From the NCBI RefSeq assembly GCF_000379125.1, contig NZ_KB900626.1, forward strand, positions 1,025,748 to 1,089,747: DNA of 64,000 nt. The letters run 5' to 3'. Of the stretch, positions 2,688 to 24,595 are shown one piece after another. The position numbers and the translations under genes are program-made. This DNA is from Methylosinus sp. LW4. GTDB taxonomy: Bacteria; Pseudomonadota; Alphaproteobacteria; Rhizobiales; Beijerinckiaceae. How positions within the stretch are numbered: the first letter of the stretch is position 1; the number at the start of each line of letters is the position of its first letter. The notes beneath the pieces are model-generated. The model saw only the letters and a list, made by a program, of their open reading frames with translations. It had not been told where the DNA came from and ran no database searches.

Positions 2688-3752
2688 ATGTCACGAGCAT
2701 TCATCGCTGCGCTGAGCGCGCTGGCGCTGGTCCCTTTCGCCGCGGTCGCTGGCGATCTGCGGTCGGACGCCAACGCCGTTTTCAAGCCGATCACCCCGGC
2801 CGCGGCCACAAAGGCGGTCAAGAACAACGACGTCACACCTGCCAAGATCGAGCTCGGCAAGCAGCTGTTCTTCGATCCGCGCATTTCCTCGAGCCAGCTC
2901 ATCAGCTGCAACTCGTGCCATAATCTGAGCCTCGGCGGCGTCGACGCCGGCTCGACCTCCATCGGCCATGGCTGGCAGAAGGGTCCGCGCCGCGCGCCGA
3001 CCGTTCTCAACGCCGTGTTCAACGTCGCCCAGTTCTGGGACGGCCGCGCCGAGGATCTGAAGGCCCAGGCCAAGGGCCCGGTGCAGGCCGGCGTCGAGAT
3101 GAACAACACGCCCGCCAATGTCGAGGCGACGCTGAACAGCATTCCGGCCTATGTCGCCTCCTTCCAGAAGGCCTTCCCCGGCGACAACAAGCCGGCGAGC
3201 TTCGACAATTTCGCCAAGGCGATCGAGGCCTTCGAATCGACTCTGGTGACGCCCAATTCGCGCCTCGACAAATTCCTCGGCGGCGACGAGGCGGCGCTGG
3301 ACGCGACGCAGAAGAAGGGCCTGCGCCTCTTCCTCGACAAGGGCTGTGGCGGCTGCCACGACGGCGTGAACGCCGGCGGCGGCGGCTACACGCAGTTCGG
3401 CGCGGTGGAGAAGCCGGCGGCGGCCATTCTGCCGGAAGCTGACAAGGGCCGTTTCAACGTCACCAAGAGCCCGGCGGACGTCTTCTCCTTCCGCGTCGCG
3501 CCGCTGCGCAATGTGGCGCTGCGCGCTCCCTACTTCCACACCGGCCAGGTGTGGACTCTGGAGGAGGCGGTCAATGTCATGGCGAAATCGCAGCTCGGCC
3601 TCGAGCTGGCGCCGGACGAGACCACGGCCATAGTCGCCTTCCTCGGCGCGCTGACCGGCGATCAGCCCAAGGTCGAATATCCGGTCCTGCCGGGCCGCAC
3701 CAATGCGACGCCTCAGCCGCAGCAGGAGCTCGCCGCGAAGCACGCTCACTGA
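2688..3752 (+). CDS. Dihaem cytochrome c peroxidase (bacterial CcpA type)
   Basis: 354 residues: signal peptide to about residue 22, then two haem c sites CNSCH (74-78) and CGGCH (220-224). The segments FWDGRAEDL, APYFHTGQVW and AVNVMAKSQLG are those of classical bacterial cytochrome c peroxidases; Met298 corresponds to the axial Met of the electron-transfer haem. Known role of the family: periplasmic reduction of hydrogen peroxide with electrons from cytochrome c or cupredoxin. The ribosome site GGAGGAG lies 10 bases before the ATG. The last residues include a short His-containing tail. A strong terminator follows at 3778, so it is probably monocistronic. Confidence 0.9.
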   Translation: MSRAFIAALSALALVPFAAVAGDLRSDANAVFKPITPAAATKAVKNNDVTPAKIELGKQLFFDPRISSSQLISCNSCHNLSLGGVDAGSTSIGHGWQKGPRRAPTVLNAVFNVAQFWDGRAEDLKAQAKGPVQAGVEMNNTPANVEATLNSIPAYVASFQKAFPGDNKPASFDNFAKAIEAFESTLVTPNSRLDKFLGGDEAALDATQKKGLRLFLDKGCGGCHDGVNAGGGGYTQFGAVEKPAAAILPEADKGRFNVTKSPADVFSFRVAPLRNVALRAPYFHTGQVWTLEEAVNVMAKSQLGLELAPDETTAIVAFLGALTGDQPKVEYPVLPGRTNATPQPQQELAAKHAH

Positions 3753-3777
3753 GCCGCTTCTCGCCCGACATCGAAGA

Positions 3778-3808
3778 GCCTCCGCGCATCGCCGCGCGGA
3801 GGCTTTTT
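3778..3808 (+). terminator. Rho-independent terminator after the peroxidase gene
   Basis: Perfect 10-bp stem GCCTCCGCGC / GCGCGGAGGC (3778-3787 with 3794-3803), a six-base loop and a run of five T directly after it. Lies 25 bases past the stop codon at 3752. Confidence 0.9.
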
Positions 3809-3877
3809 CTATGGCGCGCGGCATTCTACCTTCGCCCATCACGCCTTCGACGAGGCTATCGAGACTGGAGCCGCGCC

Positions 3878-5356
3878 ATGGATCGCTCACGCGTTTGGAC
3901 ACAGGCACGCATTTCGACACGATCGCGAATTTTCGCCGGAGCGGCGCTCTTGCCGCTGCTCTTCGGCCTTTCCGGCCCCGCAACGGCGGAGGCGCGAAAC
4001 CCTTTCGCCGCCATCGGCCATATCGTCGTGATCTACACGGAGAATCGCAGCTTCGATAATGTCTTCGGCCTCTATCCCGGCGCCGATGGACTCGGCATAG
4101 GCGCGGATCGTTTCGTCCAGGTCGATGTCGACGGCAGGCCTTTCGGCGAGCTGCCGCCGATCCGTGGCGAGAAGGGCGTCGACTCCCGCTTTCCCGCGGT
4201 TCTTCCCAATGCGCCTTTCGCGATCGACGCTTTTCTGCCCAATGCGGAGAAGACGCCCGATCTGACGCATGACTTCTTCCAGGAGAAGGAGCAGATCGAC
4301 GGCGGCAAGATGGATCGCTTCGCCGCCGTTTCCGGCGCCGGCGGCCTGGTGATGGGCTATTACGACGGCCGCTCGCTGGCGCAATGGCGGCTCGCGCAGG
4401 AGTTCACGCTCGCCGATCATTTCTTCCACGGCTTCTTCGGCGGCTCCTTCGTCAATCACATGTTCCTCGTCTGCGCCTGCGCGCCGACCTTTCCTTCGGC
4501 GCCGCCGTCGCTGATCGCCGAGGCCGATGAGGCGACCGGCCTTCTGGCCCGTGCGCCGGATTCGCCGAAGAGCGCGCGCATCGGCCCGCCGCGCTACAAA
4601 AAGTCCGGGCCCGTGACCAGCGACGGCTTCGTGATCAGCACGATGCAGCCGCCGACCCCGCTCTCGCCGCTCGAATCCCCGTCGGGCGTCGGCCTGCCGC
4701 CGCAGACTCAGCCGACGATCGGCGATCGCCTTTCCGAGCAAGGCGTCTCATGGGCGTGGTACGCCGGCGGCTGGAACGATATGCGGGCCGGGCGCATCCG
4801 CCAGCGCGAGGCGCCGGAATATTTTCAGACGCATCACCAGCCCTTCCTCTATTTCGCCAATTTCGCGCCCGGAACGCCGGCGCGCGAGCAGCATTTGAAG
4901 GACGCCGACGATTTCTTCGCGGCGGCGGAGGCGGGGACGCTGCCCGCCGTGTCCTTCTACAAGCCGGTCGGCAAGTTCAACGAGCATCCCAATTACGCCG
5001 ATCTGAAAACCGGCGACGCCCATCTCGCCGACGTCGTCGCGCGTCTGCGGCGCAGCCCCAATTGGAAAGACATGCTGGTCATCGTCACCGCCGACGAGAA
5101 CGGCGGCGCCTGGGATCATGTCGCGCCGCCGCAGATCGACCGCTTCGGTCCCGGAACGCGCGTGCCGACGCTGATCCTCTCGCCCTTCGCGAAAAAGGGA
5201 TTCGTCGACCACACGAGCTATGACACGTCGTCGATTCTGGCGACGATCGAGACGCGCTTCGGATTGGCGCCGCTCACCGCGCGCGACAAGGGCGCCGCGG
5301 ACCTGCGCAATGCGTTGGACGCTGTGGCTTCCGAGCCGGCGAGAGCCGCCCGCTGA
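3878..5356 (+). CDS. Secreted phosphoesterase of the phospholipase C / acid phosphatase family (PF04185 type)
   Basis: 492 residues from the ATG at 3878, which opens a signal peptide (hydrophobic core GAALLPLLFGLSG, cleavage near ATAEA). The N-terminal metal and catalytic region shows IYTENRSFDNVFG, and the C-terminal half carries TADENGGAWDHV, both hallmarks of the family that includes phospholipase C and acid phosphatase AcpA. It probably releases phosphate from an organic ester in the periplasm or outside the cell. An in-frame extension back to 3551 runs through the preceding peroxidase gene and terminator, so it was rejected. Confidence 0.85.
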   Translation: MDRSRVWTQARISTRSRIFAGAALLPLLFGLSGPATAEARNPFAAIGHIVVIYTENRSFDNVFGLYPGADGLGIGADRFVQVDVDGRPFGELPPIRGEKGVDSRFPAVLPNAPFAIDAFLPNAEKTPDLTHDFFQEKEQIDGGKMDRFAAVSGAGGLVMGYYDGRSLAQWRLAQEFTLADHFFHGFFGGSFVNHMFLVCACAPTFPSAPPSLIAEADEATGLLARAPDSPKSARIGPPRYKKSGPVTSDGFVISTMQPPTPLSPLESPSGVGLPPQTQPTIGDRLSEQGVSWAWYAGGWNDMRAGRIRQREAPEYFQTHHQPFLYFANFAPGTPAREQHLKDADDFFAAAEAGTLPAVSFYKPVGKFNEHPNYADLKTGDAHLADVVARLRRSPNWKDMLVIVTADENGGAWDHVAPPQIDRFGPGTRVPTLILSPFAKKGFVDHTSYDTSSILATIETRFGLAPLTARDKGAADLRNALDAVASEPARAAR

Positions 5357-5943: not shown

Positions 5944-6714
5944 ATGAGCGTAACGACAGAGACATCGGCCGGCGCAGCCGCCGGCTCAGATGCCATCGTG
6001 GACCTGAAGGGCATGTGGATCGGCGTTGCCGTCCTCAATGTTTTCTACCTCTTCATCCGCATCTATGAGCAGATCTTCGGCTGGCGCGCGGGCCTCGACT
6101 CGTTCGCTCCCGAGTTCCAGACCTATTGGCTGACGATGCTGTGGACGGAAATTCCGCTCGAGCTCGTGGCTGGTCTGGGCCTCGCCGGCTATCTGTGGAA
6201 GACCCGCGACCGCAATGTCGACGCGGTTTCTCCGCGTGAGGAGCTTCGCCGTCACGTCGTGCTGCTGCAGTGGCTGACGGTCTACTCGGTGGCCATCTAC
6301 TGGGGCGCCAGCTTCTTCACGGAGCAGGACGGCACCTGGCATATGACCGTGATTCGCGACACGGACTTCACGCCGTCGCACATCATCGAGTTCTATCTCA
6401 GCTATCCGATCTACTCGATCTTCGGCGTCGGCTCGTTCTTCTACGCCAAGACCCGCATTCCGTTCTTCGCGCACGGCTATTCGCTGGCGTTCCTGATCGT
6501 GGCCATCGGCCCGTTCATGATCATCCCGAACGTCGGCCTGAACGAGTGGGGCCACACCTTCTGGTTCATGGAAGAGCTGTTCGTCGCTCCGCTGCATTGG
6601 GGCTTCGTGTTCTTCGGCTGGATGGCGCTGGGCGTGTTCGGCGTGGTCCTTCAGATCCTGGCCGGCGTGAAGCGCCTGCTGGGCAAGGACGGCGTTGCGG
6701 CGCTGATCGGCTGA
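5944..6714 (+). CDS. pmoC: Particulate methane monooxygenase subunit C
   Basis: 256-residue polytopic membrane subunit of pMMO, the copper enzyme that oxidises methane to methanol in intracytoplasmic membranes. The metal ligands known from Methylococcus capsulatus are all present, with a numbering offset of 27: Asp129, His133 and His146 for the CuC site, and Asn200, His204 and His218 for the CuD site, in NEWGHTFWFMEELF. The ATG at 5944 follows AGGAGG with an ideal gap; an upstream in-frame start at 5857 lies in the leader and lacks a ribosome site. First gene of pmoCAB. Codon choice in all three pmo genes is more biased towards ctg, gtt, ggt and gct codons than in most neighbours, as expected for very high expression. 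Confidence 0.98.
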   Translation: MSVTTETSAGAAAGSDAIVDLKGMWIGVAVLNVFYLFIRIYEQIFGWRAGLDSFAPEFQTYWLTMLWTEIPLELVAGLGLAGYLWKTRDRNVDAVSPREELRRHVVLLQWLTVYSVAIYWGASFFTEQDGTWHMTVIRDTDFTPSHIIEFYLSYPIYSIFGVGSFFYAKTRIPFFAHGYSLAFLIVAIGPFMIIPNVGLNEWGHTFWFMEELFVAPLHWGFVFFGWMALGVFGVVLQILAGVKRLLGKDGVAALIG

Positions 6715-6967
6715 TCGCAGCCTGACACTCGGCCGCCCGCTCTGCGGACGGCCGCCTCCGGCGAATGAAATTTCCGAATGCTCTCGGAACGAAGGCTTCG
6801 TTCGGACGGCCGCGCAGCGGCGGTTCGGACGGGGTCTCGGGGAGCGGGGGAGAGGGCGGCCGCCGGGGACGCAAGCTTTAAGGACAATCCGGCGCGAGAG
6901 AGCCGGAGGCAGGTCTCGAGACGCCGGCGCGAAGACGCCGGGCGGACAGACACCAAGGAGAAGAGTG
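6715..6967 (+). other. pmoC-pmoA spacer with hairpin
   Basis: 253-base G-rich spacer. GAACGAA (6787-6793) and TTCGTTC (6797-6803) form a tight hairpin that could take part in processing or stabilising the pmo message. AAGGAG at 6955-6960 is the pmoA ribosome site. No gene is seen. Confidence 0.45.
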
Positions 6968-7726
6968 ATGTCTACATCGAAGAGCGGGGGGGCTATCGGG
7001 CCTTTCCATTCTGTCGCGGAAGCGGCGGGATGCGTTAAGACCTCCGATTGGCTGATTCTGACGCTGCTGTTTCTGGCAGTGCTGGGCGGCTATCATATTC
7101 ACTTCATGCTGACGGCCGGCGACTGGGACTTCTGGGTCGACTGGAAAGACCGTCGTATGTGGCCGACGGTCATCCCGATCCTGGGCGTGACCTTCGCGGC
7201 TGCGGCTCAGGCGTTCCTGTGGGAGAACTTCCGTCTCCCGTTCGGCGCGACCTTCGCGGTTCTGGGTCTGCTCATCGGCGAGTGGATCAACCGTTACGTG
7301 AACTTCTGGGGCTGGACCTATTTCCCGATCAGCCTGGTGTTCCCGTCCGCTCTGGTCGTTCCGGCTCTGTGGCTGGACATCATCCTGCTGCTGTCGGGCT
7401 CCTATGTGATCACGGCTGTGGTCGGCGCCCTGGGCTGGGGTCTGCTGTTCTACCCGAACAACTGGCCGGCGATCGCCGCCTTCCATCAGGCGACGGAGCA
7501 GCATGGTCAGCTGATGTCTCTGGCTGATCTGATCGGCCTCCACTTCGTCCGCACCTCGATGCCGGAATACATCCGCATGGTCGAGCGCGGCACGCTGCGC
7601 ACCTTCGGTAAGGACGTCGTGCCGGTGGCCGCGTTCTTCTCGGGCTTCGTGTCGATGCTCGTGTACTTCCTGTGGTGGTTCGTCGGTAAGTGGTACTCCA
7701 CCACGAAGGTGATCACCAAGATCTGA
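6968..7726 (+). CDS. pmoA: Particulate methane monooxygenase subunit A
   Basis: 252 residues, the standard PmoA length, with about seven membrane segments. The conserved blocks GDWDFWVDWKDRRMWPT and NFWGWTYFPISLVFPSALV identify PmoA, the usual marker gene of methanotrophs, and the sequence is clearly of the type II (Methylosinus/Methylocystis) kind. The ATG at 6968 is preferred over the GTG three bases upstream because AAGGAG (6955-6960) is better spaced. Middle gene of the operon, between long spacers to pmoC and pmoB. Confidence 0.98.
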   Translation: MSTSKSGGAIGPFHSVAEAAGCVKTSDWLILTLLFLAVLGGYHIHFMLTAGDWDFWVDWKDRRMWPTVIPILGVTFAAAAQAFLWENFRLPFGATFAVLGLLIGEWINRYVNFWGWTYFPISLVFPSALVVPALWLDIILLLSGSYVITAVVGALGWGLLFYPNNWPAIAAFHQATEQHGQLMSLADLIGLHFVRTSMPEYIRMVERGTLRTFGKDVVPVAAFFSGFVSMLVYFLWWFVGKWYSTTKVITKI

Positions 7727-7883: not shown

Positions 7884-9179
7884 ATGAAACTGTTGGAGAG
7901 AATGGCCGTGCTGGCGACGGGACGCGTCGCTCGGCTCTTCGGCCTGGGCATGGCGGCTGCGGTCGCTGCGACGATGGGCTCCGTCGCTCCGGCGTCGGCG
8001 CACGGCGAGAAGTCGCAGCAGGCGTTCCTGCGCATGCGCACGCTGAACTGGTATGACGTGAAGTGGTCGAAGACGTCTCTGAACGTCAACGAGTCGCTGG
8101 TGCTTTCGGGCAAGGTGCACGTGTTCTCGGCTTGGCCGCAGGCCGTGGCGAACCCGAAGTCGTCGTTCCTGAACGCCGGCGAGCCCGGCCCGGTTCTGGT
8201 TCGCACGGCTCAGTTCATCGGCGAGCAGTTCGCTCCGCGTTCGGTTTCGCTCGAGGTTGGCAAGGACTACGCCTTCTCGATCGAGCTGAAGGCGCGCCGC
8301 GCCGGCCGTTGGCACGTCCATGCGCAGATCAACGTCGAAGGCGGCGGCCCGATCATCGGACCCGGCCAGTGGATCGAGATCAAGGGCGACATGGCCGACT
8401 TCAAGGACCCGGTCACGCTGCTGGACGGCACGACCGTGGACCTCGAGACCTACGGCATCGACCGCATCTACGCCTGGCACTTCCCGTGGATGATCGCGGC
8501 TGCGGCCTGGATCCTCTACTGGTTCTTCAAGAAGGGCCTCATCGCTTCCTACCTGCGCGTCAGCGAAGGCAAGGAAGACGAGCAGATCGGTGACGACGAC
8601 CGTCGCGTCGGCGCTATCGTTCTGGCGGTGACGATCCTCGCGACGATCATCGGCTACGCTGTCACCAACAGCACCTTCCCGCGCACGATCCCGCTTCAGG
8701 CCGGCTTGCAGAAGCCGCTGACGCCGATCACCGAGGAAGGCACTGTGGGCGTCGGCTCCAAGGTCGTCACGGCCGATCTCAAGGGCGGCGTCTACAAGGT
8801 GCCGGGCCGCGAGCTGACGGTTCAGGTGAAGATCACGAACAAGACGGACGAGCCGCTGAAGCTCGGCGAGTATACGGCGGCGGGTCTCCGCTTCCTGAAC
8901 CCCGACGTGTTCACGACGAAGCCGGAGTTCCCCGACTATCTGCTGGCGGACCGTGGTCTGTCGACGGATCCGACGCCGATCGCGCCGGGTGAGACGAAGA
9001 CGATCGAGATCAAGGTGCAGGACGCGCGTTGGGACATCGAGCGTCTCTCCGACCTCGCCTATGACACGGACAGCCAGATCGGCGGTCTGCTGTTCTTCTT
9101 CGGCCCGTCGGGCAAGCGCTACGCCACCGAAATCGGCGGCCCGGTCATTCCGAAGTTCGTCGCCGGCGACATGCCCTGA
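7884..9179 (+). CDS. pmoB: Particulate methane monooxygenase subunit B
   Basis: 431 residues: signal peptide, N-terminal cupredoxin domain, two membrane helices (near residues 195-211 and 232-250), and a C-terminal periplasmic cupredoxin domain. After cleavage at ASA|H the mature protein starts with His40, which together with His144 and His146 (RWHVH) forms the known copper site (His33, His137, His139 in M. capsulatus). The residue equivalent to M. capsulatus His48 is Asn55, as in type II methanotrophs, so the additional monocopper site of that organism lacks this ligand. The start at 7884 follows GGGAGG (7871-7876). Last gene of pmoCAB before a strong terminator. Confidence 0.98.
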   Translation: MKLLERMAVLATGRVARLFGLGMAAAVAATMGSVAPASAHGEKSQQAFLRMRTLNWYDVKWSKTSLNVNESLVLSGKVHVFSAWPQAVANPKSSFLNAGEPGPVLVRTAQFIGEQFAPRSVSLEVGKDYAFSIELKARRAGRWHVHAQINVEGGGPIIGPGQWIEIKGDMADFKDPVTLLDGTTVDLETYGIDRIYAWHFPWMIAAAAWILYWFFKKGLIASYLRVSEGKEDEQIGDDDRRVGAIVLAVTILATIIGYAVTNSTFPRTIPLQAGLQKPLTPITEEGTVGVGSKVVTADLKGGVYKVPGRELTVQVKITNKTDEPLKLGEYTAAGLRFLNPDVFTTKPEFPDYLLADRGLSTDPTPIAPGETKTIEIKVQDARWDIERLSDLAYDTDSQIGGLLFFFGPSGKRYATEIGGPVIPKFVAGDMP

Positions 9180-9242: not shown

Positions 9243-9567
9243 GCGATCGGGGTAGATTCCGGGGCTCGCAGCAAGAACGCGGCAATTATATCGGACTGCG
9301 ATATATGCGGCGTTTGGACGCAGGAGAAATTGTCGCGTCTGCGCCAGAACGCGCATAGAATTTATCCATAGAGTCTCACGCTGGCAGTGGTCCGCAGGAG
9401 CGCAGCTACGCCGCGGCCGATCGACGAAATAGCGATTTCAAATCGATTCCTTTTTGCACTAAGAAAAATCGGGACGAGCGAGGGCGAGGCGAGCTCGCTC
9501 TCTCGAAAGCTCGAAGAAAAAGCGCCGCGGCGACTGTGTGCGCGCGTGGTCGGGAGGAAGGAAGCCG
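9243..9567 (+). promoter_or_regulatory. Probable promoter region of pmoD and the copper genes, with inverted repeat
   Basis: 325 bases with no gene. It holds a perfect inverted repeat, TATATCG-N5-CGATATA (9287-9305), and further on a good -10-like hexamer TAGAAT (9356-9361) with no matching -35, which is the pattern of an activator-dependent promoter. Two AT-rich runs follow near 9430-9470. GGGAGGAAGGAAG before 9568 is the pmoD ribosome site. The assignment is inference from position and sequence only. Confidence 0.5.
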
Positions 9568-10182
9568 ATGATCGTTCGATCCGTGAGACCGTGCCTATTG
9601 GCGCTTGCGCTGCTCTTCGCGTCCTTTGCCGCTCCTCCGGCTCGCGCCGGCGGCGACGGCCCGGAAGCGATGGTCATGGACAATATGTGCATGGTCATGT
9701 TCGGCTATGACATGATCCACGTCACCGCCTATGAGGCGGAAGGCGCGCGCGAGCAATATTGCGACCATATTCCCTTCGTCGGCCGCGTCATCTTCACTTT
9801 CGACATCGCCAATCCCGATTTTCGAGATCTGCCGCTGGAGCTGCGCATCATTCGCGATCCGCTGACGCCGATTTCGGCCAATACGGATCTCGAGCCGCTC
9901 ACCATCGTTCATCTGCCGGCGAAGCTCTATAAGACCGGCACCTTCAACTTCGAGCACAGATTCACTGAAAAGGGCCATTTCATCGGCTATGTGACGCTCA
10001 CGCGAGCGAATGGCGAGAAAGAGACCCAGCAGTTCAAATTCATGGTCGGTCAGACGCTGTGGTCCTTCGTGCCGCAGGCGCTCGGCGCCGTGCTGATCGC
10101 GCTGATGGTCGGCGCCTATTGGCGTCACAGCCACCCCAAGCCGAAGACCGCCGAGCCTGCGGACGCGCTGAAGTCATCGTGA
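9568..10182 (+). CDS. pmoD: PmoD-type periplasmic copper protein
   Basis: 204 residues: signal peptide to about residue 27, a periplasmic domain, and one C-terminal membrane helix (LGAVLIALMVGAYW). The N-terminal part of the domain is rich in soft metal ligands: Met35, Met37, Met40, Cys41, Met42, Met44, Met49 and later Cys65 in QYCDHI. PmoD proteins are known from type II methanotrophs, encoded next to pmoCAB, and form an unusual CuA-like centre from Cys and Met at a dimer interface. The ATG at 9568 is preferred to a GTG at 9538 because of the GGGAGG just upstream. First gene of the set pmoD-copC-copD-PCuAC. Confidence 0.88.
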   Translation: MIVRSVRPCLLALALLFASFAAPPARAGGDGPEAMVMDNMCMVMFGYDMIHVTAYEAEGAREQYCDHIPFVGRVIFTFDIANPDFRDLPLELRIIRDPLTPISANTDLEPLTIVHLPAKLYKTGTFNFEHRFTEKGHFIGYVTLTRANGEKETQQFKFMVGQTLWSFVPQALGAVLIALMVGAYWRHSHPKPKTAEPADALKSS

Positions 10183-10256: not shown

Positions 10257-10622
10257 ATGAAGGTGAAGTTCGGAGCCGGCCTCGTGGCGGCGTTTCTATG
10301 CATGAGCGCCGGAGCGGCGCTCGCGCATTCCTTTCTGGTCGACGCCTCTCCGTCGGCCAAGGATCATGTCGCCGCCTCGCCCAAATTCGTGAAGCTGCGC
10401 TTCGGCGGCGGCGTGGAGGCGGCCTATTCGACGATCTCCATCGTCGGCGCCGATGGCAAGACCATCGTCGAAGGCGCCAAGGGCGCGCCCGACAAGCCGC
10501 GCGAGCTGACGCTCGACGCGCCGGATCTCGCGGCGGGCAAATATGTCGTGAAATATCGCGTTCTCTCCTCGGATGGCCACATCGTCGAGGGGAAATACGA
10601 GTTCACGGTGGACGCTCACTAA
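10257..10622 (+). CDS. copC: Periplasmic copper-binding protein CopC
   Basis: 121 residues. The signal peptide ends at ALA|H, so the mature protein begins with His24. With Asp106 and His108 (SSDGHI) this gives the known Cu(II) site of CopC: His1, Asp83 and His85 of the mature chain match exactly. The Met-rich Cu(I) site of Pseudomonas CopC is absent, as in the methanotroph CopC studied from Methylosinus. Probable role: holding or passing copper in the periplasm, with CopD encoded next. GGAGGAG precedes the ATG. Confidence 0.93.
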   Translation: MKVKFGAGLVAAFLCMSAGAALAHSFLVDASPSAKDHVAASPKFVKLRFGGGVEAAYSTISIVGADGKTIVEGAKGAPDKPRELTLDAPDLAAGKYVVKYRVLSSDGHIVEGKYEFTVDAH

Positions 10623-10716: not shown

Positions 10717-12660
10717 ATGGAATTGGCGACGCTTCGCTTCGTGGAGAGCGTTCTTTCCGCTCTCGCCGTCGGACTATTGCTGCTGCCCCGCCTCATCGAG
10801 GAGGATGGCGCGCGCTTCAAGAAAGTGATCGCGGGCGCCGCGGTCTTGCGCCTGCTGTTCGGCTTCGGCCTCATCGTCGCGACGGCGCGCAACATCATCC
10901 CTGCGGGCCGTCCGGTCGATTCCGACGCGCTGCTGCAGTTCATCTCCGGCACGGTGATCGGCAAGGCTTGGGTGGCGACGCAGATTCTCGCGGCGGTCTT
11001 CGCCGGGGCGACGCTGGCGCGCTTGCGGGTCTCCAATCTCTGGCTCGATCGCGCGACGCTCGGGCTCGGGCTCGCCGTGCTCGCCGTCGTTTCCGTCACC
11101 GGCCATGCGGTGGACGACAGCCTGCCGATCTACACGCAGCTGAGCTTCCCCTTCCACACGCTGGCGGGCCTCACCTGGATCGGCGGCCTGCTCGGCCTCG
11201 TCTATTGGATGCTGACAGGCCGCGGCAAGCCGCCGGAGGTCGCTTGGCGACTCGCCGAGCGCTGGTCGCTCGTCGCCAAGGGCGCGATGGTCATCGTGCT
11301 CATCAGCGGCCTCATCCTCGCGTGGGAGACGGTCGGCAGCTTCGGCTTCATGCTGGCGACGCCCTACGGCCGTCTGCTCAGCGTCAAGCTGGCGCTGCTC
11401 TGCGCCGCTCTGCTGCTGGCACTCTCGCTGGCGCGCTATCTGACGCTCGGCTCCTCGAAGAAGGATTTCGATCTCGGCTGGTATGCGAAAATCGGCGGCT
11501 TCGAGGGCGGCTGCGCGCTCGGCCTCTTGTTCATCGCCGGCTGGATCGCCACCATCACGCCGGCGGCGCATGAGAACAACGTCTATTGGCCGCTGCCTTT
11601 CCGCGTGACCTATGCCGGCACCTGGGGTCTCAAGGTCACGCCCTGGATCGATCCCACCTGGCAATGGGGCGTCGCCGGAGCGGCGCTGGCGGTGGCCGCG
11701 GCCTTGGCCTGGCTCGCGCCGGCGCTGGTCGCGGCCGTGGGCTTCACGCCTTTGCCGCAGCTACGCGATTGGCGAAAATATTCGACTGCGGCGCTGGCGC
11801 TGGCCGCGGCGGTCTGTGGAACAGTCTCGCTTTCGGTGCAGGCCTATCCCGAGACCTACACCGATCCGCCCATCGCTTACACGGCGGCCTCTGTGAAGCG
11901 CGGCTTCGAGACCTTCCAGGCCAATTGCATCCCCTGTCACGGCGTGACCGGCGAAGGCAATGGACCCATGGCCAAGGATCTCAAGGTTCCGCCCGCCGAT
12001 CTCACCGCGCCGCATGTCGCGACGCATACGCTCGGCGATATTTTCCATTGGCTGACCTATGGCGGGCAGAGCGGCGTCATGCCGCCTTTCGCCGACGCCA
12101 TAGGCGAGGACGAGCGCTGGGATCTCATCAATTTTCTCACGGTTCTGTCCAACTCCAATCAGTCGCGCTTCTTGAGTCCCAAGGGCGTCATTCCTTGGCT
12201 GGTCGCGCCCAATTTCGCGCTGGAGGATCCAAAGGGCGAGATCGACGACCTCGAGAAGCTGCGCGGCGTGCCGACGCTCGTCTCCTTCGCGCGCTGCAAG
12301 CCGGAGGACGCCGATTTCGCCGATCGCGTCGCGAGCCTGAAGGCCGCCGCCGAGACGGTGAAGGCGATGGGCGCGCATCATGTCGCCGATTATTTCGGCG
12401 AATGCCCGGCCGATCCGAACGCGCTGACGCCGAGCCATCCCGACGCCACAGAGCTCACCTATTCGATCATCAACCATTATCTCGACGAGCCGGTCGTCAA
12501 TGAGATCCCGGAAGGGCATTTCCTCATCGATCGTTCCGGCTATGTGAGAGCCCGCTTCCGCCATTTCGGGACCGACGACGGCAATCTCGCTCTGCTGAAG
12601 GCGCAAATCGCGCTGACGGCGAAGGAGCCCGTCGTCTACGTCTCCCCGCATCAGCACTGA
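10717..12660 (+). CDS. copD: CopD-like copper membrane protein fused to cytochrome c and a thioredoxin-like domain
   Basis: 647 residues, much longer than a typical CopD of about 300. Residues 1 to about 385 are many membrane helices with the CopD block FPFHTLAGLTWIGGLLGL. Residues about 390-490 form a class I cytochrome c domain: CIPCH at 404-408 and a later GVMPPF that supplies the Met ligand. Residues about 497-647 resemble a thioredoxin/SCO fold: APNFALEDPKGE, LRGVPTLVSFARC and FLIDRSGYVRARF. The usual CxxC is missing there; only Cys527 and Cys563 remain. CopD proteins are linked to copper import. The added haem and redox domains suggest copper reduction or electron transfer coupled to transport, which is inference. 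Confidence 0.85.
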   Translation: MELATLRFVESVLSALAVGLLLLPRLIEEDGARFKKVIAGAAVLRLLFGFGLIVATARNIIPAGRPVDSDALLQFISGTVIGKAWVATQILAAVFAGATLARLRVSNLWLDRATLGLGLAVLAVVSVTGHAVDDSLPIYTQLSFPFHTLAGLTWIGGLLGLVYWMLTGRGKPPEVAWRLAERWSLVAKGAMVIVLISGLILAWETVGSFGFMLATPYGRLLSVKLALLCAALLLALSLARYLTLGSSKKDFDLGWYAKIGGFEGGCALGLLFIAGWIATITPAAHENNVYWPLPFRVTYAGTWGLKVTPWIDPTWQWGVAGAALAVAAALAWLAPALVAAVGFTPLPQLRDWRKYSTAALALAAAVCGTVSLSVQAYPETYTDPPIAYTAASVKRGFETFQANCIPCHGVTGEGNGPMAKDLKVPPADLTAPHVATHTLGDIFHWLTYGGQSGVMPPFADAIGEDERWDLINFLTVLSNSNQSRFLSPKGVIPWLVAPNFALEDPKGEIDDLEKLRGVPTLVSFARCKPEDADFADRVASLKAAAETVKAMGAHHVADYFGECPADPNALTPSHPDATELTYSIINHYLDEPVVNEIPEGHFLIDRSGYVRARFRHFGTDDGNLALLKAQIALTAKEPVVYVSPHQH

Positions 12661-12793: not shown

Positions 12794-13411
12794 ATGATGA
12801 TCAAGCGGCGTGATCTGTTGGCGGCGGGCGGCGCTCTATTGGGCGGCGCTGCGTTCGGCGCGTTGACTCCGATGCGCTCGGCGCAGGCTCATGAATATGA
12901 GCTCGGCAAGCTGACGATCGAGCATCCCTGGGTGCGCGCGCCCAAGGACGGCGAGACGACGGCGTATTTCTACGCCTTCATCCACAATAAGGGCGGCGCG
13001 GACACGCTCATCGCGGTGAAGTCGCCGAATATCGGCAAGGTGACGCTGCATGCGGACGCCAAGCATACGGTTGCCGAAGGCGGCATCGCCATCGCGGCCG
13101 ACAAGACGACGACGCTCTCGCCCGAAGGCGCGCATGTCGTGCTCGCCGAGGTGAAGAAGATCAATCCCGTCGGCTGGGGAATCGAGCTCGTTCTCGTGTT
13201 CGAGAAGGCGGGCGAGGTGACTGTCGACGCGGCGGTCGATGCGCCCGACGCCAAGCATGCGCATGACGCGGAGGCGCTGCAGCGTTGGGAAAAGGCCCAT
13301 CCAGAAGGCGGCGAGGCCAAGCCGGCCGAGCATACCGGCCATGACCATGACCACCACGATCACGATCATCACGATCATGATCACCACGAAGAGCCGGCCA
13401 AGAAGCCGTAA
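12794..13411 (+). CDS. PCuAC-domain periplasmic copper chaperone with His-rich tail
   Basis: 205 residues. A twin-arginine-type signal (KRRDLLAAGG) leads to cleavage near AQA|H33, exposing an N-terminal His. The core is a PCuAC (DUF461) cupredoxin-like domain, but the canonical Met-rich HM-X10-M-X21-HXM motif is lost: His86 and His114 remain and the Met positions do not. That fits the histidine-brace type of PCuAC reported from methanotrophs. Residues 180-198 are almost only His and Asp. The preceding ribosome site is AGGGAG; translation may start at either of two adjacent ATGs. Last gene of the copper set. Confidence 0.9.
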   Translation: MMIKRRDLLAAGGALLGGAAFGALTPMRSAQAHEYELGKLTIEHPWVRAPKDGETTAYFYAFIHNKGGADTLIAVKSPNIGKVTLHADAKHTVAEGGIAIAADKTTTLSPEGAHVVLAEVKKINPVGWGIELVLVFEKAGEVTVDAAVDAPDAKHAHDAEALQRWEKAHPEGGEAKPAEHTGHDHDHHDHDHHDHDHHEEPAKKP

Positions 13412-16822: not shown

Positions 16823-17443
16823 TCAGACCTCGTCTGCGACTCCGAGATCGAATTCCCCAAAGCCCGCTTCTTTTATTCGCCTATACAATTCATTGGATAT
16901 AAATAGAAACGAGTGAGTCGTCTGCTTGTCTCGCCAAAGATGAAAATTACGCGCGTTTTGCCGACGAATTTTTAATGGATGGAGTGAGCCTGCACGATAA
17001 AGGCGATCGCCATTATTGAGAGTCGAATATCTTCCTTCCACGATCGCATCAACGAGTCGACAGGCATTGAGAATGTAGCGACGCGGCTCTCGGAGCGTTC
17101 CGTCGACATCATAGATGTCGACGGGGAAAAATTGGTGCACGCCCGGCTCGAGCGCCTCGATGAGGTCGCGCACCTGGACGCTCAGACAGGGAGCCCCGCC
17201 AGAAACAAACGAAATATCAGGATTATGAGGTGAGAAGTCCTCTTCAGGGACATAGTCTGCGCGCAAAACCGATTGCGGCTGAGCTTCCGGCCGAATGCGT
17301 TCACCGACCACATTCTGCCATGTCATGAATTTTTGCCCTGCCGCGAATTCTTCACGCACCTCGCACCAAGGATAGGGCGATGGGTGCTGTTCGAGACTTG
17401 CGCTGATCACATATGCCACGGCATTTGCTCCGGGCGATTTCAA
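16823..17443 (-). CDS. Imm11-like (DUF1629) protein, possible orphan immunity protein
   Basis: 206 residues. The C-terminal half, with FFPVDIYDVDG, YILNACRLVDAI and FISNELYRRIKEAGF, resembles the DUF1629/Imm11 family found with polymorphic toxins. The gene is visibly more AT-rich than its neighbours (for example near 16850-17060), which suggests transfer. The only in-frame start is a TTG at 17443 with a weak ribosome site, so the 5' end is uncertain. No toxin gene lies beside it in the window. Family assignment is from motif memory, not a search. Confidence 0.6.
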   Translation of the reverse strand: MKSPGANAVAYVISASLEQHPSPYPWCEVREEFAAGQKFMTWQNVVGERIRPEAQPQSVLRADYVPEEDFSPHNPDISFVSGGAPCLSVQVRDLIEALEPGVHQFFPVDIYDVDGTLREPRRYILNACRLVDAIVEGRYSTLNNGDRLYRAGSLHPLKIRRQNARNFHLWRDKQTTHSFLFISNELYRRIKEAGFGEFDLGVADEV

Positions 17444-19845: not shown

Positions 19846-20646
19846 TCAGACCGCCAGCGAGATCGTCACCGGCACATGGTCCGAGGGGCGCGTCCAATTG
19901 CGCGCCTCGCGCAGCACATGCATCTGCTGCAGCGTTTCGGAGAGCGCCTCGCTCGCCCAAATATGATCGAGCCGGCGGCCGCGGTCGGATTTCTCCCAAT
20001 CCGAGGCGCGATAGCTCCACCACGTATAGAGCTTCTCCTCCTTGGGCACGAAGCGGCGCATCGCGTCGATCCAGCGTCCCGCGTCGATGACGCGGCCGAG
20101 CTTCTCCACCTCGATCGGCGTATGGCTCACCACTTGGAGCAGCGCCTTATGGCTCCAGACGTCCTGCTCCAGCGGCGCGATATTGAGGTCGCCGGCCAGC
20201 ACCACGCGGCCGTCGGTCACGCGGTCGCGCGCGATCCATTCGGCCATCTCGTCCAGAAAATCGAGCTTATGGGCGAATTTCGGATTGATCTCGCGATTGG
20301 GCTCGTCGCCGCCGGCCGGCACGTAGAAATTATGGATCGTGACCGGCGTTCCGCCATTGGGGACGCCGACCGACACATGGCGGGCGTCGCCTTTCTCGCA
20401 GAAATCGCGCGTCTCCAGCAGCTCCAGCGGCTGCTTCGAGACGATGGCGACGCCGTGATAGCCCTTCTGGCCATTGATGGCGAAATGCTCATAGCCGAGC
20501 GCGCGAAAATCCGAATAGGGGAATTCGGCGTTGCGGCACTTGGTCTCCTGCAGGCAGATGACGTCCGGCGCGTGCTCCTTCAAGAATTGCGCGACGATCG
20601 GCATGCGCAGGCGCACGGAATTGATGTTCCAGGTGGTGATCTTCAT
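19846..20646 (-). CDS. xthA: Exodeoxyribonuclease III
   Basis: 266 residues with the AP-endonuclease family motifs: TWNINSVR, LQETK (Glu34), the GDLNIAP active-site block and the terminal SDHVPV. It cuts at abasic sites and removes 3' blocking groups in base excision repair. It converges with the membrane protein gene at 19312, six bases away, and lies downstream of the YcjF-like gene. Confidence 0.95.
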   Translation of the reverse strand: MKITTWNINSVRLRMPIVAQFLKEHAPDVICLQETKCRNAEFPYSDFRALGYEHFAINGQKGYHGVAIVSKQPLELLETRDFCEKGDARHVSVGVPNGGTPVTIHNFYVPAGGDEPNREINPKFAHKLDFLDEMAEWIARDRVTDGRVVLAGDLNIAPLEQDVWSHKALLQVVSHTPIEVEKLGRVIDAGRWIDAMRRFVPKEEKLYTWWSYRASDWEKSDRGRRLDHIWASEALSETLQQMHVLREARNWTRPSDHVPVTISLAV

Positions 20647-20688
20647 CCGCTTGTCTTCTCGAGAGGGAAAATCCGCGCCGCCATATCG

Positions 20689-21768
20689 TCAGCCGCCGCT
20701 GCTGCGGTCGCCGAACAAGAAAGGCGCCACATCGGCGACGCCGGGGGCCTTTTCGGCGCTGAAGGGCATGGGCCGGCAGACCGCCATGGCCGAGAGGCCG
20801 ACGCGCGCGGTCAAGAGGCCGTTGAGCACGCCCTCGCCGAGCTTGGCGGAGAGCTTGGCGGCGATGCCATGGCCGACCACCTGCTGCAGCAGCGAATCGC
20901 CGATGGCGAGGCCGCCGGTGATGGCGAGATGCGCGCCGACCGAGCGCGCGAGCTTGAAGAAGCCCAGCATTCCCGGTCGGCCGCCATAGATTTCCGCGAT
21001 GCGGCGCATCAGCCGTATCGCCTGCGCGGCGACGAACAGCACGTCGAGCAGAGCGCGCGGGCTGACCGTGGTGACGATGGAGACGCGCTTGGAGGCGTCG
21101 GCGATCTCGCGCCGCGCCTGCGCGTCCAGCGGATGCGCGATATGGCGCTCGGCGAGATCGACGAGATCGCGCCCATCGATGATCTGCTGCGAGAACTCCA
21201 GCACCAGCGCGCGCGCGCGGCCGGTCTCGGGGCGATCCTCATAGAGCTTGCACAGCTCCTTCACATGCTCACGCGCGGCTTTGATGTCGTCGCGAAGCCG
21301 CGCCTCGGCGAGGGCGATATGCAGCTTGGCGATGCGATTCTGCCGCGCGATGGCGGCGATCTCCTTGGCCAGCATCGCCGCCGCGGCGACGAGCGCCAGG
21401 CCGGCGAGCGCGAGCCCGACAGTTCCGAGCATGGCCGAATGCGCGAAAAGGTCCTCGACCAGATTGGTGAGCCACATGCCGGCGGCCAGCGACAGCAGCC
21501 CGCCCACGGCCGAGACGAACAATCCGCCCCAGGAGACCAGCATGCTGCGGAGCACGCCGCGCTTCTGCGCGGCCTCGATCGCCTTCTCTTCCTCGACGAA
21601 GTCGCGCGGGGCGGTCTCGGCCTCGAGCGCGAAGACGTCGATCTGCGCCTCGAAGACGCTGGGCTGGGCTCGTTCCGCCTCCTGCGGCTTCGCGCTTTTG
21701 GGGGGGACGATCTGCTCGCCGTCGAGGCGGAAGGCGCGCGGGCGCGGTCTGCGTTCTGGTTCCGTCAT
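20689..21768 (-). CDS. YcjF-like membrane protein (TIGR01620 / DUF697 family)
   Basis: 359 residues. A charged Pro-rich N-terminus is followed by two membrane helices (residues about 82-130) and a C-terminal DUF697-type domain with GARL-like helices (IGDSLLQQVVGHGIAAKLSAKLGEG, split here only by description). This matches the TIGR01620 family of inner-membrane proteins whose role is unknown. In other proteobacteria it is next to ycjX, an ATPase gene; that partner is not adjacent here. Confidence 0.8.
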   Translation of the reverse strand: MTEPERRPRPRAFRLDGEQIVPPKSAKPQEAERAQPSVFEAQIDVFALEAETAPRDFVEEEKAIEAAQKRGVLRSMLVSWGGLFVSAVGGLLSLAAGMWLTNLVEDLFAHSAMLGTVGLALAGLALVAAAAMLAKEIAAIARQNRIAKLHIALAEARLRDDIKAAREHVKELCKLYEDRPETGRARALVLEFSQQIIDGRDLVDLAERHIAHPLDAQARREIADASKRVSIVTTVSPRALLDVLFVAAQAIRLMRRIAEIYGGRPGMLGFFKLARSVGAHLAITGGLAIGDSLLQQVVGHGIAAKLSAKLGEGVLNGLLTARVGLSAMAVCRPMPFSAEKAPGVADVAPFLFGDRSSGG

Positions 21769-21910
21769 CTCTGTCGCTTCGATGGCGCTTTCGCCCCGCA
21801 GCTTTCTAGCGCATGGGGGGCGGCTCCGCTCGGGAAAATTGCCGCCCGCGCAGAGCTCTCGACAGAAAACATCGGAGGCGGGGCCATCTCGCCCCGCCGA
21901 CAGCGCTCTG

Positions 21911-21950
21911 GTCTCAGGCGGGAGCTCAGGGTCTCAGGCGGGAGCCCATG
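21911..21950. repeat. 20-bp tandem duplication at the end of the GST gene
   Basis: The unit starting GTCTCAGGCGGGAGC occurs at 21911 and again at 21931, with the first 15 bases identical. The right-hand copy carries the GST stop codon at 21934-21936; the left-hand copy lies just past it, so the duplicated stop gives no change in the protein. Confidence 0.7.
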
Positions 21951-22563
21951 CCTGCCGCGCGGCGAGCTTCTCATTGTGCTCGAGGGCGCGCAGCCGCGCC
22001 GGGCGATTCTCGAGGCCGGCCCAATAGGCCTCGAACTCCGGCCGCTTCTCCAGCACGCCGAAGCGCATGCCGAAGCCGATCATCGAGCCGAGATAGACAT
22101 CGGCCGCGCTGAAGGCATCGCCGGCGATATAGCGCCGCCCCGCCAGCGCTTTCGCCAGAGTGTCCAGCACGGCGGCGTATGAGCCGTAGCCGAAGCTCCG
22201 CTGCCTGTCCGCGGCCGGGTCCCAGCCGACGGAATGATTGCTCATCGCCGGCTCCACGCAGCCGGCGGCGAAGAACAGCCAGCGATAATAGGCGCTGCGC
22301 TCGGCCGTCGGCGGCGCGAGGCCGGCCTGCGGAAAGGCGTCGGCGAGATAGGCGCAGATGGCCGCGGCCTCCGTCACCACCTTGTCTCCGTGGCGGATCG
22401 CCGGCACCTTGCCCATGGGGTTGATGGCGAGGAACTCGGGCGATTTGATCGTGGTCCCATATTCCTGGATCTCGACGGAATAGGGCGCGCCGATCTCCTC
22501 GAGCAGCCAATGCACGATCATGCCGCGCGATTGCGGATTGGTGTAGAAAACGATCTTCGACAT
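21934..22563 (-). CDS. Glutathione S-transferase (from internal start)
   Basis: 209 residues from the ATG at 22563, preceded by AAAGGAG at ideal distance, so it can be translated on its own even though it shares the frame of the regulator upstream. The N-terminal thioredoxin-like domain shows FYTNPQSRGMIVHWLLEEIG, NPMGKVPAI and the TEAAAICAYLAD block; the C-terminal helical domain contains the FSAADVYLGS motif. It would conjugate glutathione to an unknown electrophile. Related regulator-GST gene pairs are common, which suggests that the regulator controls this gene. Confidence 0.85.
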   Translation of the reverse strand: MSKIVFYTNPQSRGMIVHWLLEEIGAPYSVEIQEYGTTIKSPEFLAINPMGKVPAIRHGDKVVTEAAAICAYLADAFPQAGLAPPTAERSAYYRWLFFAAGCVEPAMSNHSVGWDPAADRQRSFGYGSYAAVLDTLAKALAGRRYIAGDAFSAADVYLGSMIGFGMRFGVLEKRPEFEAYWAGLENRPARLRALEHNEKLAARQAWAPA

Positions 22564-23295
22564 AGAATCTCCTTTCGCGGTCGGGGACGCGAGACGTCCA
22601 TAAGCCGACACGCTGTCAGATTCTGTCAGCATCGAGCGCCGCCACTCCTTTTGCAGCGTCTGGCGTCGGCGCGGCGGGCGCTCCTCCAGCATTTCCGCCG
22701 CCTCGATGCGATCCGCGCGGAAATGGCGAAAATCGCCTCTCAGCTCGCACCAGGCGACGAGCACGCGGGCCGATTCGAAAAAGCCGAGCGCCACCGGCCA
22801 GACGACGCGCCTCGTGCGCGCGCCTTTGCCGTCGGCGTAAGAGATGGCGAGCTTGCGCTCCTCGCGCAGGGCGCGGCGCAGCAGCTTCAGCTCGGCGACA
22901 TGCGCGCGCGACCAAGGCGGGCCGACGATCAGCGCGTCGTCCGACGTGCACGACCGCCCTTGCGGGAGCACGGCGGAAATTTTCGCCATCGCGCTCTGCG
23001 CGGCGCGCGAAAGTCCGTCGTCGGTGCGCTGCGCCACCCATTTGGCGCCGAGCTCCAGCGCCTCGATCTCTTCCTCGGAGAACATCAGCGGCGGCATCAG
23101 AAAGCCGGGCCGCAGGACATAGCCGACGCCCGGCTCGCCCTCGATCTCCGCGCCCATGGCCTGCAGCGCCGCGATATCGCGATAGAGCGTGCGCAAGGAG
23201 ACGCCGGCCGCGCGCGCGAGCTCGGCGCCGCTGACCGGGCGTCGGCGCCCGCGCAGGAGCTGCAAGAGTTCGAAGAGGCGGCCGGCGCGCGACAT
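21934..23295 (-). CDS. WYL-type HTH regulator reading in frame into a glutathione S-transferase
   Basis: The frame opened by the ATG at 23295 runs 453 codons without a stop. Residues 1 to about 60 form a YafY-type HTH (SGAELARAAGVSLRTLYRDI). Residues about 130-225 are a WYL-like domain ending VWPVALGFFESARVLVAW and HFRADRIEAAEML. Instead of stopping, the frame continues through about 24 residues into a complete GST whose own Met is residue 245. The regulator may thus be made as a fusion, with free GST from the internal start. A sequencing error or a recently lost stop is the alternative. It lies 41 bases after the LuxR-type gene. Confidence 0.65.
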   Translation of the reverse strand: MSRAGRLFELLQLLRGRRRPVSGAELARAAGVSLRTLYRDIAALQAMGAEIEGEPGVGYVLRPGFLMPPLMFSEEEIEALELGAKWVAQRTDDGLSRAAQSAMAKISAVLPQGRSCTSDDALIVGPPWSRAHVAELKLLRRALREERKLAISYADGKGARTRRVVWPVALGFFESARVLVAWCELRGDFRHFRADRIEAAEMLEERPPRRRQTLQKEWRRSMLTESDSVSAYGRLASPTAKGDSMSKIVFYTNPQSRGMIVHWLLEEIGAPYSVEIQEYGTTIKSPEFLAINPMGKVPAIRHGDKVVTEAAAICAYLADAFPQAGLAPPTAERSAYYRWLFFAAGCVEPAMSNHSVGWDPAADRQRSFGYGSYAAVLDTLAKALAGRRYIAGDAFSAADVYLGSMIGFGMRFGVLEKRPEFEAYWAGLENRPARLRALEHNEKLAARQAWAPA

Positions 23296-23336
23296 GGGAC
23301 GTGATGCTAGCACGGGACGCGGAGCGGTTCGCGATC

Positions 23337-24434
23337 CTAGTCCTTCGGCGGACGCGGCGGCTTGAGCTGGCTCGCCAGCAGCGCGACGAGGCTGGACTGC
23401 CGGCCGACTCCCGTCTTGGCGAAGACGCTCTTGAGCTGGCTGCGAACAGTCGCGGGCGTCGTGCCCTGCCGCCTCGCGATCTGCCCCGGAGACAGGCCCG
23501 AGACGATGCCGCTGGCGACGCAAGCCTCGGCGGCGGTGAGATCGAAGAGGCCGCGGATCACCGCCGCGTCGAGCGCTTGGCGGAGCGCGATGGGCGCGAC
23601 CACCAGAAGGGCGCAGCCGCCGTCGAAAAGATCGCGCGATTCGCCCGCCATCGGAATGAGATGGACGACCGCCGCTGCGCCGTCGCGGCCGCGGGCGGGA
23701 AAGGAGCGCGGGGTCGTGGCCGCAGGGCTCGACACATCGGCGAGCGCGCGCCGCAGCATGCCATTGGCGGCGGAGTCGGCGAGAGCGACGCGGTCGTCCG
23801 GTAGCCAAAGGACATGGGGCGTCATCGTCTCGATGAGCGAATTGGCGGCGAGGGCGCGCCCGCGCGCGTCGAGAGCGGCGGCGGGGAGGCCGATCAGCGC
23901 CAGCGCTTCGGTGGCGGCGCGCAGCCGCTCGAGCCGCCAGCGCGCCGCCAGAAAGCCGGCGCGCGCGAGATGCGGACGAAACGCGTCGAGCCGCGCGATA
24001 TCGGCGGGCGAGAAGGCCGGCTGGCCGATGCGTCGGCTGATATGAACCACCACGAAATCCTCTGTCGGCATGGGCATGGCCGTGGCGGCGGCATGGCTCA
24101 GGCCATTGGGCGTTCCCCAATGCGTCATCACCGGATCGGCGAACCATTCTTCCGACGTGAACACGGTCTCGGCGTCGAGGAATCCGGCCCGGTCGGCGGC
24201 GAGCAGCCTTATGGGCGCCTCGCTGCGCGCGCTGGCCGGCGACCGCAGATAGTCGTCGACGCCGACCATTTCGGGGGAATGTCGCCAGCCGACCCAGGAG
24301 TCGCTGCGCCGCGTGAGAATGATTCCGCCGGCGGCGTCCGCCGAGGCGGCGAGCTCGTGCATCGCGCGCGGCCAGAGATCGGGATCGGTGGCGGCGCGAT
24401 AGATGAGCTCGACGAGGCTTTCGAAATCGATCAT
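23337..24434 (-). CDS. LuxR-family transcriptional regulator
   Basis: 365 residues. The C-terminal 60 residues are a LuxR-type HTH (LTAAEACVASGIVSGLSPGQ, then RSQLKSVFAKTGVGRQSSLV). The N-terminal part starts DFESLVELIYRAATDPDLWP, the opening seen in PAS-like sensor regions of many alphaproteobacterial LuxR proteins. The signal is unknown. It is transcribed towards the regulator-GST gene, 41 bases away, and diverges from plsY. Confidence 0.85.
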   Translation of the reverse strand: MIDFESLVELIYRAATDPDLWPRAMHELAASADAAGGIILTRRSDSWVGWRHSPEMVGVDDYLRSPASARSEAPIRLLAADRAGFLDAETVFTSEEWFADPVMTHWGTPNGLSHAAATAMPMPTEDFVVVHISRRIGQPAFSPADIARLDAFRPHLARAGFLAARWRLERLRAATEALALIGLPAAALDARGRALAANSLIETMTPHVLWLPDDRVALADSAANGMLRRALADVSSPAATTPRSFPARGRDGAAAVVHLIPMAGESRDLFDGGCALLVVAPIALRQALDAAVIRGLFDLTAAEACVASGIVSGLSPGQIARRQGTTPATVRSQLKSVFAKTGVGRQSSLVALLASQLKPPRPPKD

Positions 24435-24595
24435 GGCCGGGCTCGAATATGAATTTTCGAAATGAGAAAACCAAGCTTGTGCGAATGTCGAAGCAGCTTT
24501 CGCGCCAGCGCGAGGCGTCGCGCATTTCGGCGCCGCTTCGGGCTCGGCTTGCGGCGCGCTTCGGGCTCGACTAGTTTGCGCGCCGCGTTCGGCGA

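Follow-up and report, generated by a model that had tools for sequence, protein, structure and literature searches.

A window of 64,000 nucleotides from Methylosinus sp. LW4 (contig NZ_KB900626.1, positions 1,025,748 to 1,089,747) contains the gene of an unusually long CopD relative. Its 647-residue chain combines a CopD membrane core with a class I cytochrome c and a redoxin-like domain. The preferred interpretation takes this CopD form of the extended copper-monooxygenase operons for a membrane protein of ten helices with a haem c on the periplasmic side, where haem and copper would trade electrons and Cu(II) would most probably become Cu(I); the probability of this reading is estimated at about 0.42. 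The three-domain CopD itself is real and conserved: it recurs at alpha methanotroph loci, in a family resembling ammonia oxidisers and in two further genomes of the gamma class. Computation established its domain layout and predicted folds, how well it is conserved, its operon and its distribution.

Architecture of the fused chain

Conservation was assessed in a set of 58 family members (18 from the alpha branch and 40 others), hand-picked from fetched loci. One member (L132) is cut at the C-terminus and was counted as lacking the His tail; two (L135 and L136) lack the N-terminus. An AlphaFold2 model built from 58 relatives has a mean predicted local distance difference test score (pLDDT) of 89.2 and a predicted template modelling score (pTM) of 0.79. 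It comprises eight membrane-length helices in the CopD core (residues 2–277, with two short helices between), two more at residues 313–340 and 347–371, the cytochrome c and the redoxin domain (Table 1). A first-pass annotation, made from the letters of the window, had proposed this domain order together with a CIPCH haem motif, a Met ligand and, at the C-terminus, a redoxin fold that lacks CxxC. Pfam and the model bear out the three domains, the haem residues are conserved, and structure prediction and profiles agree on the fold of residues 490–647.

The Pfam CopD family (PF05425) matches residues 178–276 with 44.7 bits (E 1.9e-11) and thus passes its gathering score of 32.1 bits. The NCBIfam CopD equivalog NF033808 reaches 73.7 bits over residues 5–282, under its cut-off of 195 bits. 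Judged by these scores, the protein is a CopD relative outside the equivalog. In the alignment, E. coli YebZ covers the first part of the chain only. In the linker, Trp291 and Arg296 are invariant (58/58).

Per sequence, the predicted cytoplasmic loops of the 58 members hold on average 11.2 Lys and Arg residues versus 3.1 in the predicted periplasmic loops. Both termini, the haem and the redoxin domain are therefore predicted to be periplasmic. The predicted N-out/C-out topology with ten helices would place His130, His147, the haem and the His pair of the cytochrome on the periplasmic side. The predicted fold of the CopD bundle resembles CydA, PsrC and ACIII subunits, although helical bundles match easily. 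A kinship of CopD with cytochrome bd at the level of sequence found no support: hhalign against CydA gave a probability of 0.1 on a scale of 100, which leaves a similarity of fold only.

Pfam places the cytochrome c domain at about residues 392–475. The CxxCH motif, the distal Met and the fold (match to 9vr0, TM-score 0.77 by target, root-mean-square deviation 1.5) assign it to class I. On average, alpha members share 42.3% identity with the other members in the cytochrome, 28.8% in the linker, 21.1% in the redoxin domain and 20.4% in CopD; by this measure no other part of the fused chain is as well conserved as the cytochrome. The cytochrome carries the signature HxxxHTxG[DN], found in 55 of the 58 fused proteins and in none of 46 other cytochrome c domains, a comparison set taken from other fetched loci that includes several domains of one multi-domain protein and is not a random sample. 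This set began at 47 and lost L145, a repeat fetch of a family member. The family-specific His pair could hold copper.

The fold of residues 490–647 is redoxin/thioredoxin-like both by structure prediction and by profile comparison. The fold is close to those of ResA, SCO1 and TlpA, and the best profile match is AhpE (E 5.9e-10). Cys527 and Cys563 stand singly, 36 residues apart. None of the 40 non-alpha members has a cysteine at either column; the redoxin domain of genome G830 has two elsewhere. Three canonical functions were considered and rejected. A working peroxiredoxin was rejected despite the AhpE match: non-alpha members have SWPxS or a similar sequence at the relevant position, without Cys. 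A canonical Sco protein is excluded by the missing CxxxC and the lack of any SCO1-SenC match at E ≤ 1, only the similarity of fold to SCO1 remaining. A canonical TlpA/ResA thiol reductase is excluded by the missing CxxC and because the non-alpha members have neither lone cysteine at these columns. For the CopD core, the linker and the cytochrome, profiles of one branch recover every member of the other at E < 1e-3 (18/18 and 40/40); for the redoxin domain they recover just 13/18 and 22/40. The common descent of this domain is thus less well shown.

Operon and distribution

The gene order in the window is that of the extended operon pmoCAB-pmoD-copC-copD-PCuAC. Papers are cited here from the excerpts available of each. 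The excerpt of PMC6189053 describes an operon of pmoCAB, pmoD, copC, copD and pCuAC and a CuA centre in PmoD; the gene at 10717–12660 is the copD of this operon. The pmoD-type gene (9538–10182) has no Pfam or NCBIfam match. Judged by its sequence, mature CopC probably begins with His, an arrangement typical of Cu(II) His-brace proteins. The N-terminus of the PCuAC protein resembles a twin-arginine translocation (Tat) signal, but the Pfam TAT_signal match has an E-value of only 0.29, below its cut-off.

Table 1. Coordinates of the fused copD gene, its parts and the neighbouring operon genes.
Feature	Position	Strand	Basis
Three-domain CopD protein, 647 residues	10717..12660	+	Open reading frame and translation, Pfam, AlphaFold2 model
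CopD core, residues 1–282, eight predicted membrane helices	10717..11562	+	Pfam/NCBIfam, model, alignment with E. coli YebZ (290 residues)
His130 (YebZ His135), predicted periplasmic end of helix 4	11104..11106	+	Kept 58/58 in family set
His147 (YebZ His154), helix 5, towards predicted periplasmic end	11155..11157	+	Kept 58/58 in family set
Linker, residues 283–380, two extra predicted membrane helices (313–340, 347–371)	11563..11856	+	
Class I cytochrome c domain, residues 381–483	11857..12165	+	Pfam, fold match
Haem attachment motif CIPCH, residues 404–408	11926..11940	+	C404, C407 and H408 each 58/58
His433 to His437 of HxxxHTxG[DN], fused-family signature, candidate copper site	12013..12027	+	55/58 fused vs 0/46 other cytochrome c domains
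Met455, predicted sixth haem ligand	12079..12081	+	Kept 57/58
Redoxin-like domain, residues 490–647, no CxxC	12184..12657	+	Structure prediction, profiles
Cys527	12295-12297	+	Invariant in alpha branch only
Cys563	12403-12405	+	Invariant in alpha branch only
C-terminal His-x-His tail (HQH)	12649..12657	+	18/18 alpha, 17/40 others
pmoC (AmoC/PmoC family)	5944..6714	+	Pfam/NCBIfam
pmoA (AmoA/PmoA family)	6965..7726	+	Pfam/NCBIfam
pmoB (AmoB/PmoB family)	7884..9179	+	Pfam/NCBIfam
pmoD-type gene	9538..10182	+	Operon position and Cx7MxH...C motif, the CuA-type motif of PMC6189053 (excerpt)
CopC	10257..10622	+	Pfam/NCBIfam
PCuAC-domain protein, His-rich tail	12794..13411	+	Pfam

Among 150 related genomes, the full-length fusion is present in 12: the ten that belong to the same genus as the window (its own genome included), G026 and G065. 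The other matches listed are partial and cover the cytochrome, the CopD part or both. pmoB is found in 11 of the 150, namely the same ten genomes and G026; G065 has no pmoB, and its fusion sits where a contig ends. The source genome has three pmoB copies and one fusion, and G007 carries an additional, broken second copy of the fusion.

A contig scan with two peptide patterns, both derived from the alpha branch, yielded 33 loci matching residues 1–647, from Methylosinus, Methylocystis, Methylocystaceae, Hyphomicrobiales and Alphaproteobacteria. At 31 of them the open reading frame is intact and at least 600 codons long. Genes resembling pmoD and copC lie upstream at all 33 loci, and PCuAC lies downstream at 32 (the contig of L041 ends first). 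pmoB is seen at 11. In 20 cases the contig starts at most 600 bases before pmoD; L054 and L057 have over 8 kb of sequence ahead of pmoD, with no pmoB in it. L057 (10001–11969), from a Methylocystis metagenome-assembled genome, holds the fusion a second time, with a changed reading frame, in a pmoD-copC-copD-PCuAC cluster with no pmoB nearby.

Outside the alpha branch, the family of genome G243 appears, from its amoCAB-like operons, to consist of ammonia oxidisers. Matches at E 1e-15 or better were obtained in 87 of its 100 genomes, some of them partial at contig ends. pmoB/amoB is found in 63 of these 100, most of which are drafts, and missing amo copies may be assembly gaps. In 20 chosen stretches, copC lies upstream of the fusion in 19 and amoB is present in 15. 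The class of G243 was searched more widely (369 genomes, at most three candidates scored per genome, so that fusions may have been missed). PF04744 (pmoB) is present in ten genomes and a near-full-length fusion (E 1e-20 or better) in three, G243, G830 and G957, all of which belong to these ten. The remaining 17 matching genomes hold CopD or the cytochrome alone. With G243 set aside as known beforehand, the chance of two fusions falling within nine pmoB genomes of 368 is about 5e-4 if genomes are taken as independent. In G830 the fusion follows pmoCAB, pmoD and copC; in G957 copC is beside the fusion and pmoB is on other contigs.

An assembly error, which the first-pass annotation had named as refuting its proposal, is ruled out, as is an error of annotation, because the same fused chain recurs in many separate genomes. 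The domain order is not peculiar to this gene, and the location beside pmoCAB with copC next door holds for the window and, as regards copC, for every alpha locus.

Four other reading frames of the window deserve mention. About 0.6 kb 5' of pmoC, 3551–5356 (+) encodes a phosphoesterase-family protein (PF04185, E 2.1e-84). The gene at 16823–17443 (-) encodes an Imm11 immunity-protein domain (E 6.9e-15). At 21934–24525 (-), a single 863-codon frame encodes HTH_11 and WYL domains followed by glutathione S-transferase, either a fusion or two genes in one frame. The 768-codon frame at 19876–22182 (+) has no Pfam match at E ≤ 1e-4, is overlapped by antisense open reading frames and is possibly no gene.

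Proposed reduction and hand-over of copper

In the preferred reading, CopC would deliver Cu(II), which would be held by the periplasmic His site of CopD (His130 and His147) and by His433 and His437 of the cytochrome. The pool of periplasmic cytochromes that serves the oxidation of methanol or hydroxylamine would feed electrons to the haem, which would reduce Cu(II). The copper would then be passed to PmoD (CuA), to PCuAC or to the particulate methane monooxygenase (pMMO) or ammonia monooxygenase (AMO). The redoxin domain and the His tail would serve as a docking or receiving arm, to which the lone cysteines of the alpha branch would add Cu(I) ligands. Copper binding, membrane topology, electron source and direction, and hand-over are inferred parts of this reading. 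The design is common to related alpha methanotrophs and ammonia-oxidiser-like bacteria, which suggests that copper is handled with an electron carrier in the same chain. CcoG, a dedicated membrane cupric reductase that serves a copper enzyme, is a precedent (PMC7558416, excerpt). Tentatively, the protein may represent a new class of single-chain, electron-fed copper loader for copper monooxygenases, in which the HxxxH site beside the haem would reduce the Cu(II) of CopC, and PmoD and pMMO/AMO would receive Cu(I) by way of the redoxin arm. In a bolder variant, which has about one fifth of the probability of this loader, the CopD bundle itself would draw electrons from quinol, in keeping with its modelled fold.

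Several observations weigh against reduction and hand-over by this protein. The fusion is absent by direct search from seven of the nine pmoB genomes of the class other than G243, and 13 of the 100 genomes of the G243 family have no match. Nitrosomonas sp. Is79 lacks copCD beside amo (PMC3764937, excerpt). The fusion is thus not needed for every such enzyme. No PCuAC gene was found in the 20 chosen stretches of the G243 family. The His pair may instead serve folding or partner docking. It is absent from L126 and L137, and the protein of G957 (L151:3161–5161), the third exception to the signature, has lost both Met455 and the intact His pair while CxxCH, the redoxin domain and the fusion are retained; its function is perhaps altered. 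In proteome data from the excerpt of PMC5960693, CopD makes up just 0.02% in one ammonia oxidiser and 0.03% in another, and it was undetected in a third. Finally, copCD of Methylosinus trichosporium OB3b is seemingly not critical for copper uptake (review, PMC7558416); the passage concerns uptake and is silent on delivery, and the copCD locus deleted in OB3b may be a different one.

The OB3b result bears on import, in which CopC would give Cu(II) to CopD, the haem would reduce it and CopD would move Cu(I) into the cytoplasm. The first-pass annotation had envisaged such a copper-reductive import machine. Its reductive half gains support because of the His pair and the conserved haem domain, whereas import is weakened by OB3b and is considered unlikely. 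In favour of import, the excerpts of PMC13344008 and PMC12362106 point to a part in copper uptake for two CopD homologues, YcnJ and YebZ (the latter paper leaves reduction en route undecided), and His130 and His147 recur in YebZ. It is quite unlikely that the cytochrome mainly donates electrons to PmoD, at its CuA centre, or to pMMO/AMO, with copper handling as a secondary matter, since the adjoining CopC points to copper and the profile comparison with CydA is empty.

A Sco- or TlpA-like maturation factor, whose redoxin domain would reduce cysteines or load the CuA centre of PmoD, would fit the fold and the adjoining PCuAC of the alpha branch. In redoxins, the first active Cys follows the strand that Cys527 ends here (residues 520–527). 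Such a role is nevertheless improbable: the chain has neither CxxC nor CxxxC, and both cysteine columns lack Cys in all non-alpha members. Very improbable is detoxification, with the haem accepting electrons from Cu(I) so that periplasmic copper stays Cu(II). The sequence does not fix the direction of electron flow, and cop genes were first named for resistance; the tie to copper monooxygenase operons argues against this role. The OB3b operon is, moreover, up-regulated by copper only very mildly (PMC6189053, excerpt).

Relation to known systems and significance

The eight-helix core, the equivalents of His130 and His147 and the adjacent CopC gene are shared with CopD/YebZ/PcoD proteins (PF05425), but YebZ stops after the core, at 290 residues, whereas two helices, the cytochrome and the redoxin domain are added here. 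YcnJ of Bacillus subtilis, a CopC-CopD-YtkA fusion, likewise joins CopD to extracytoplasmic copper-handling domains (PMC12362106, PMC13344008). Unlike the present protein it ends in YtkA, the excerpts name no haem domain for it, and CopC is a separate gene in the window. CtiP of Corynebacterium glutamicum joins CopD to a copper-enzyme assembly factor, CtaG, in place of cytochrome and redoxin domain (PMC9145763, PMC13344008, excerpts). The copD of the extended pmo/amo operons of Methylosinus, Methylocystis and beta-proteobacterial ammonia oxidisers has the same operon position, but the excerpt of PMC6189053 mentions no cytochrome or redoxin part. In two comammox Nitrospira, copCD lies between amoCAB and amoED1D2 and is viewed as copper uptake (PMC13374858, excerpt). 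CcoG of Rhodobacter capsulatus is a functional analogue only, in that it is membrane-bound and reduces Cu(II) for a copper enzyme; unlike the fused CopD it has iron-sulfur clusters and no haem c (PMC7558416, excerpt). In the excerpt of PMC4602095, CydA and CydB are related to PsrC, and a YebZ model is listed without comparison.

A Variovorax plasmid protein (L155:4635–6581) also combines a metal permease with a class I cytochrome c, but the cytochrome precedes the permease, which is an FTR1 iron permease instead of CopD. Such plasmid proteins were rejected as relatives, as Pfam gives cytochrome c and FTR1 and no CopD.

A CopD-cytochrome-redoxin fusion is not mentioned in the excerpts of PMC6769254 and PMC9145763, and no passage describing it was found in those open papers that were consulted, a part of the ones listed; subscription papers, among them a 2016 survey of the CopC family, lay outside the scope. 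While the gene itself is known as copD, its fused architecture is possibly previously undescribed. New are the conservation of the cytochrome above the other parts, the HxxxHTxG[DN] signature and the confinement of the redoxin cysteines to the alpha branch.

The route by which copper reaches pMMO and AMO is unsettled. The site of Cu(II) reduction is left undecided in the excerpt of PMC12362106, and that of PMC13344008 gives no known reductase beside YcnJ. For PmoD, the protein with the CuA centre, the fused CopD would be a candidate physical partner. A haem-bearing CopD, kept at the alpha loci and in most searched genomes of the ammonia-oxidiser-like family, makes the question of copper reduction testable with one protein and two histidines.
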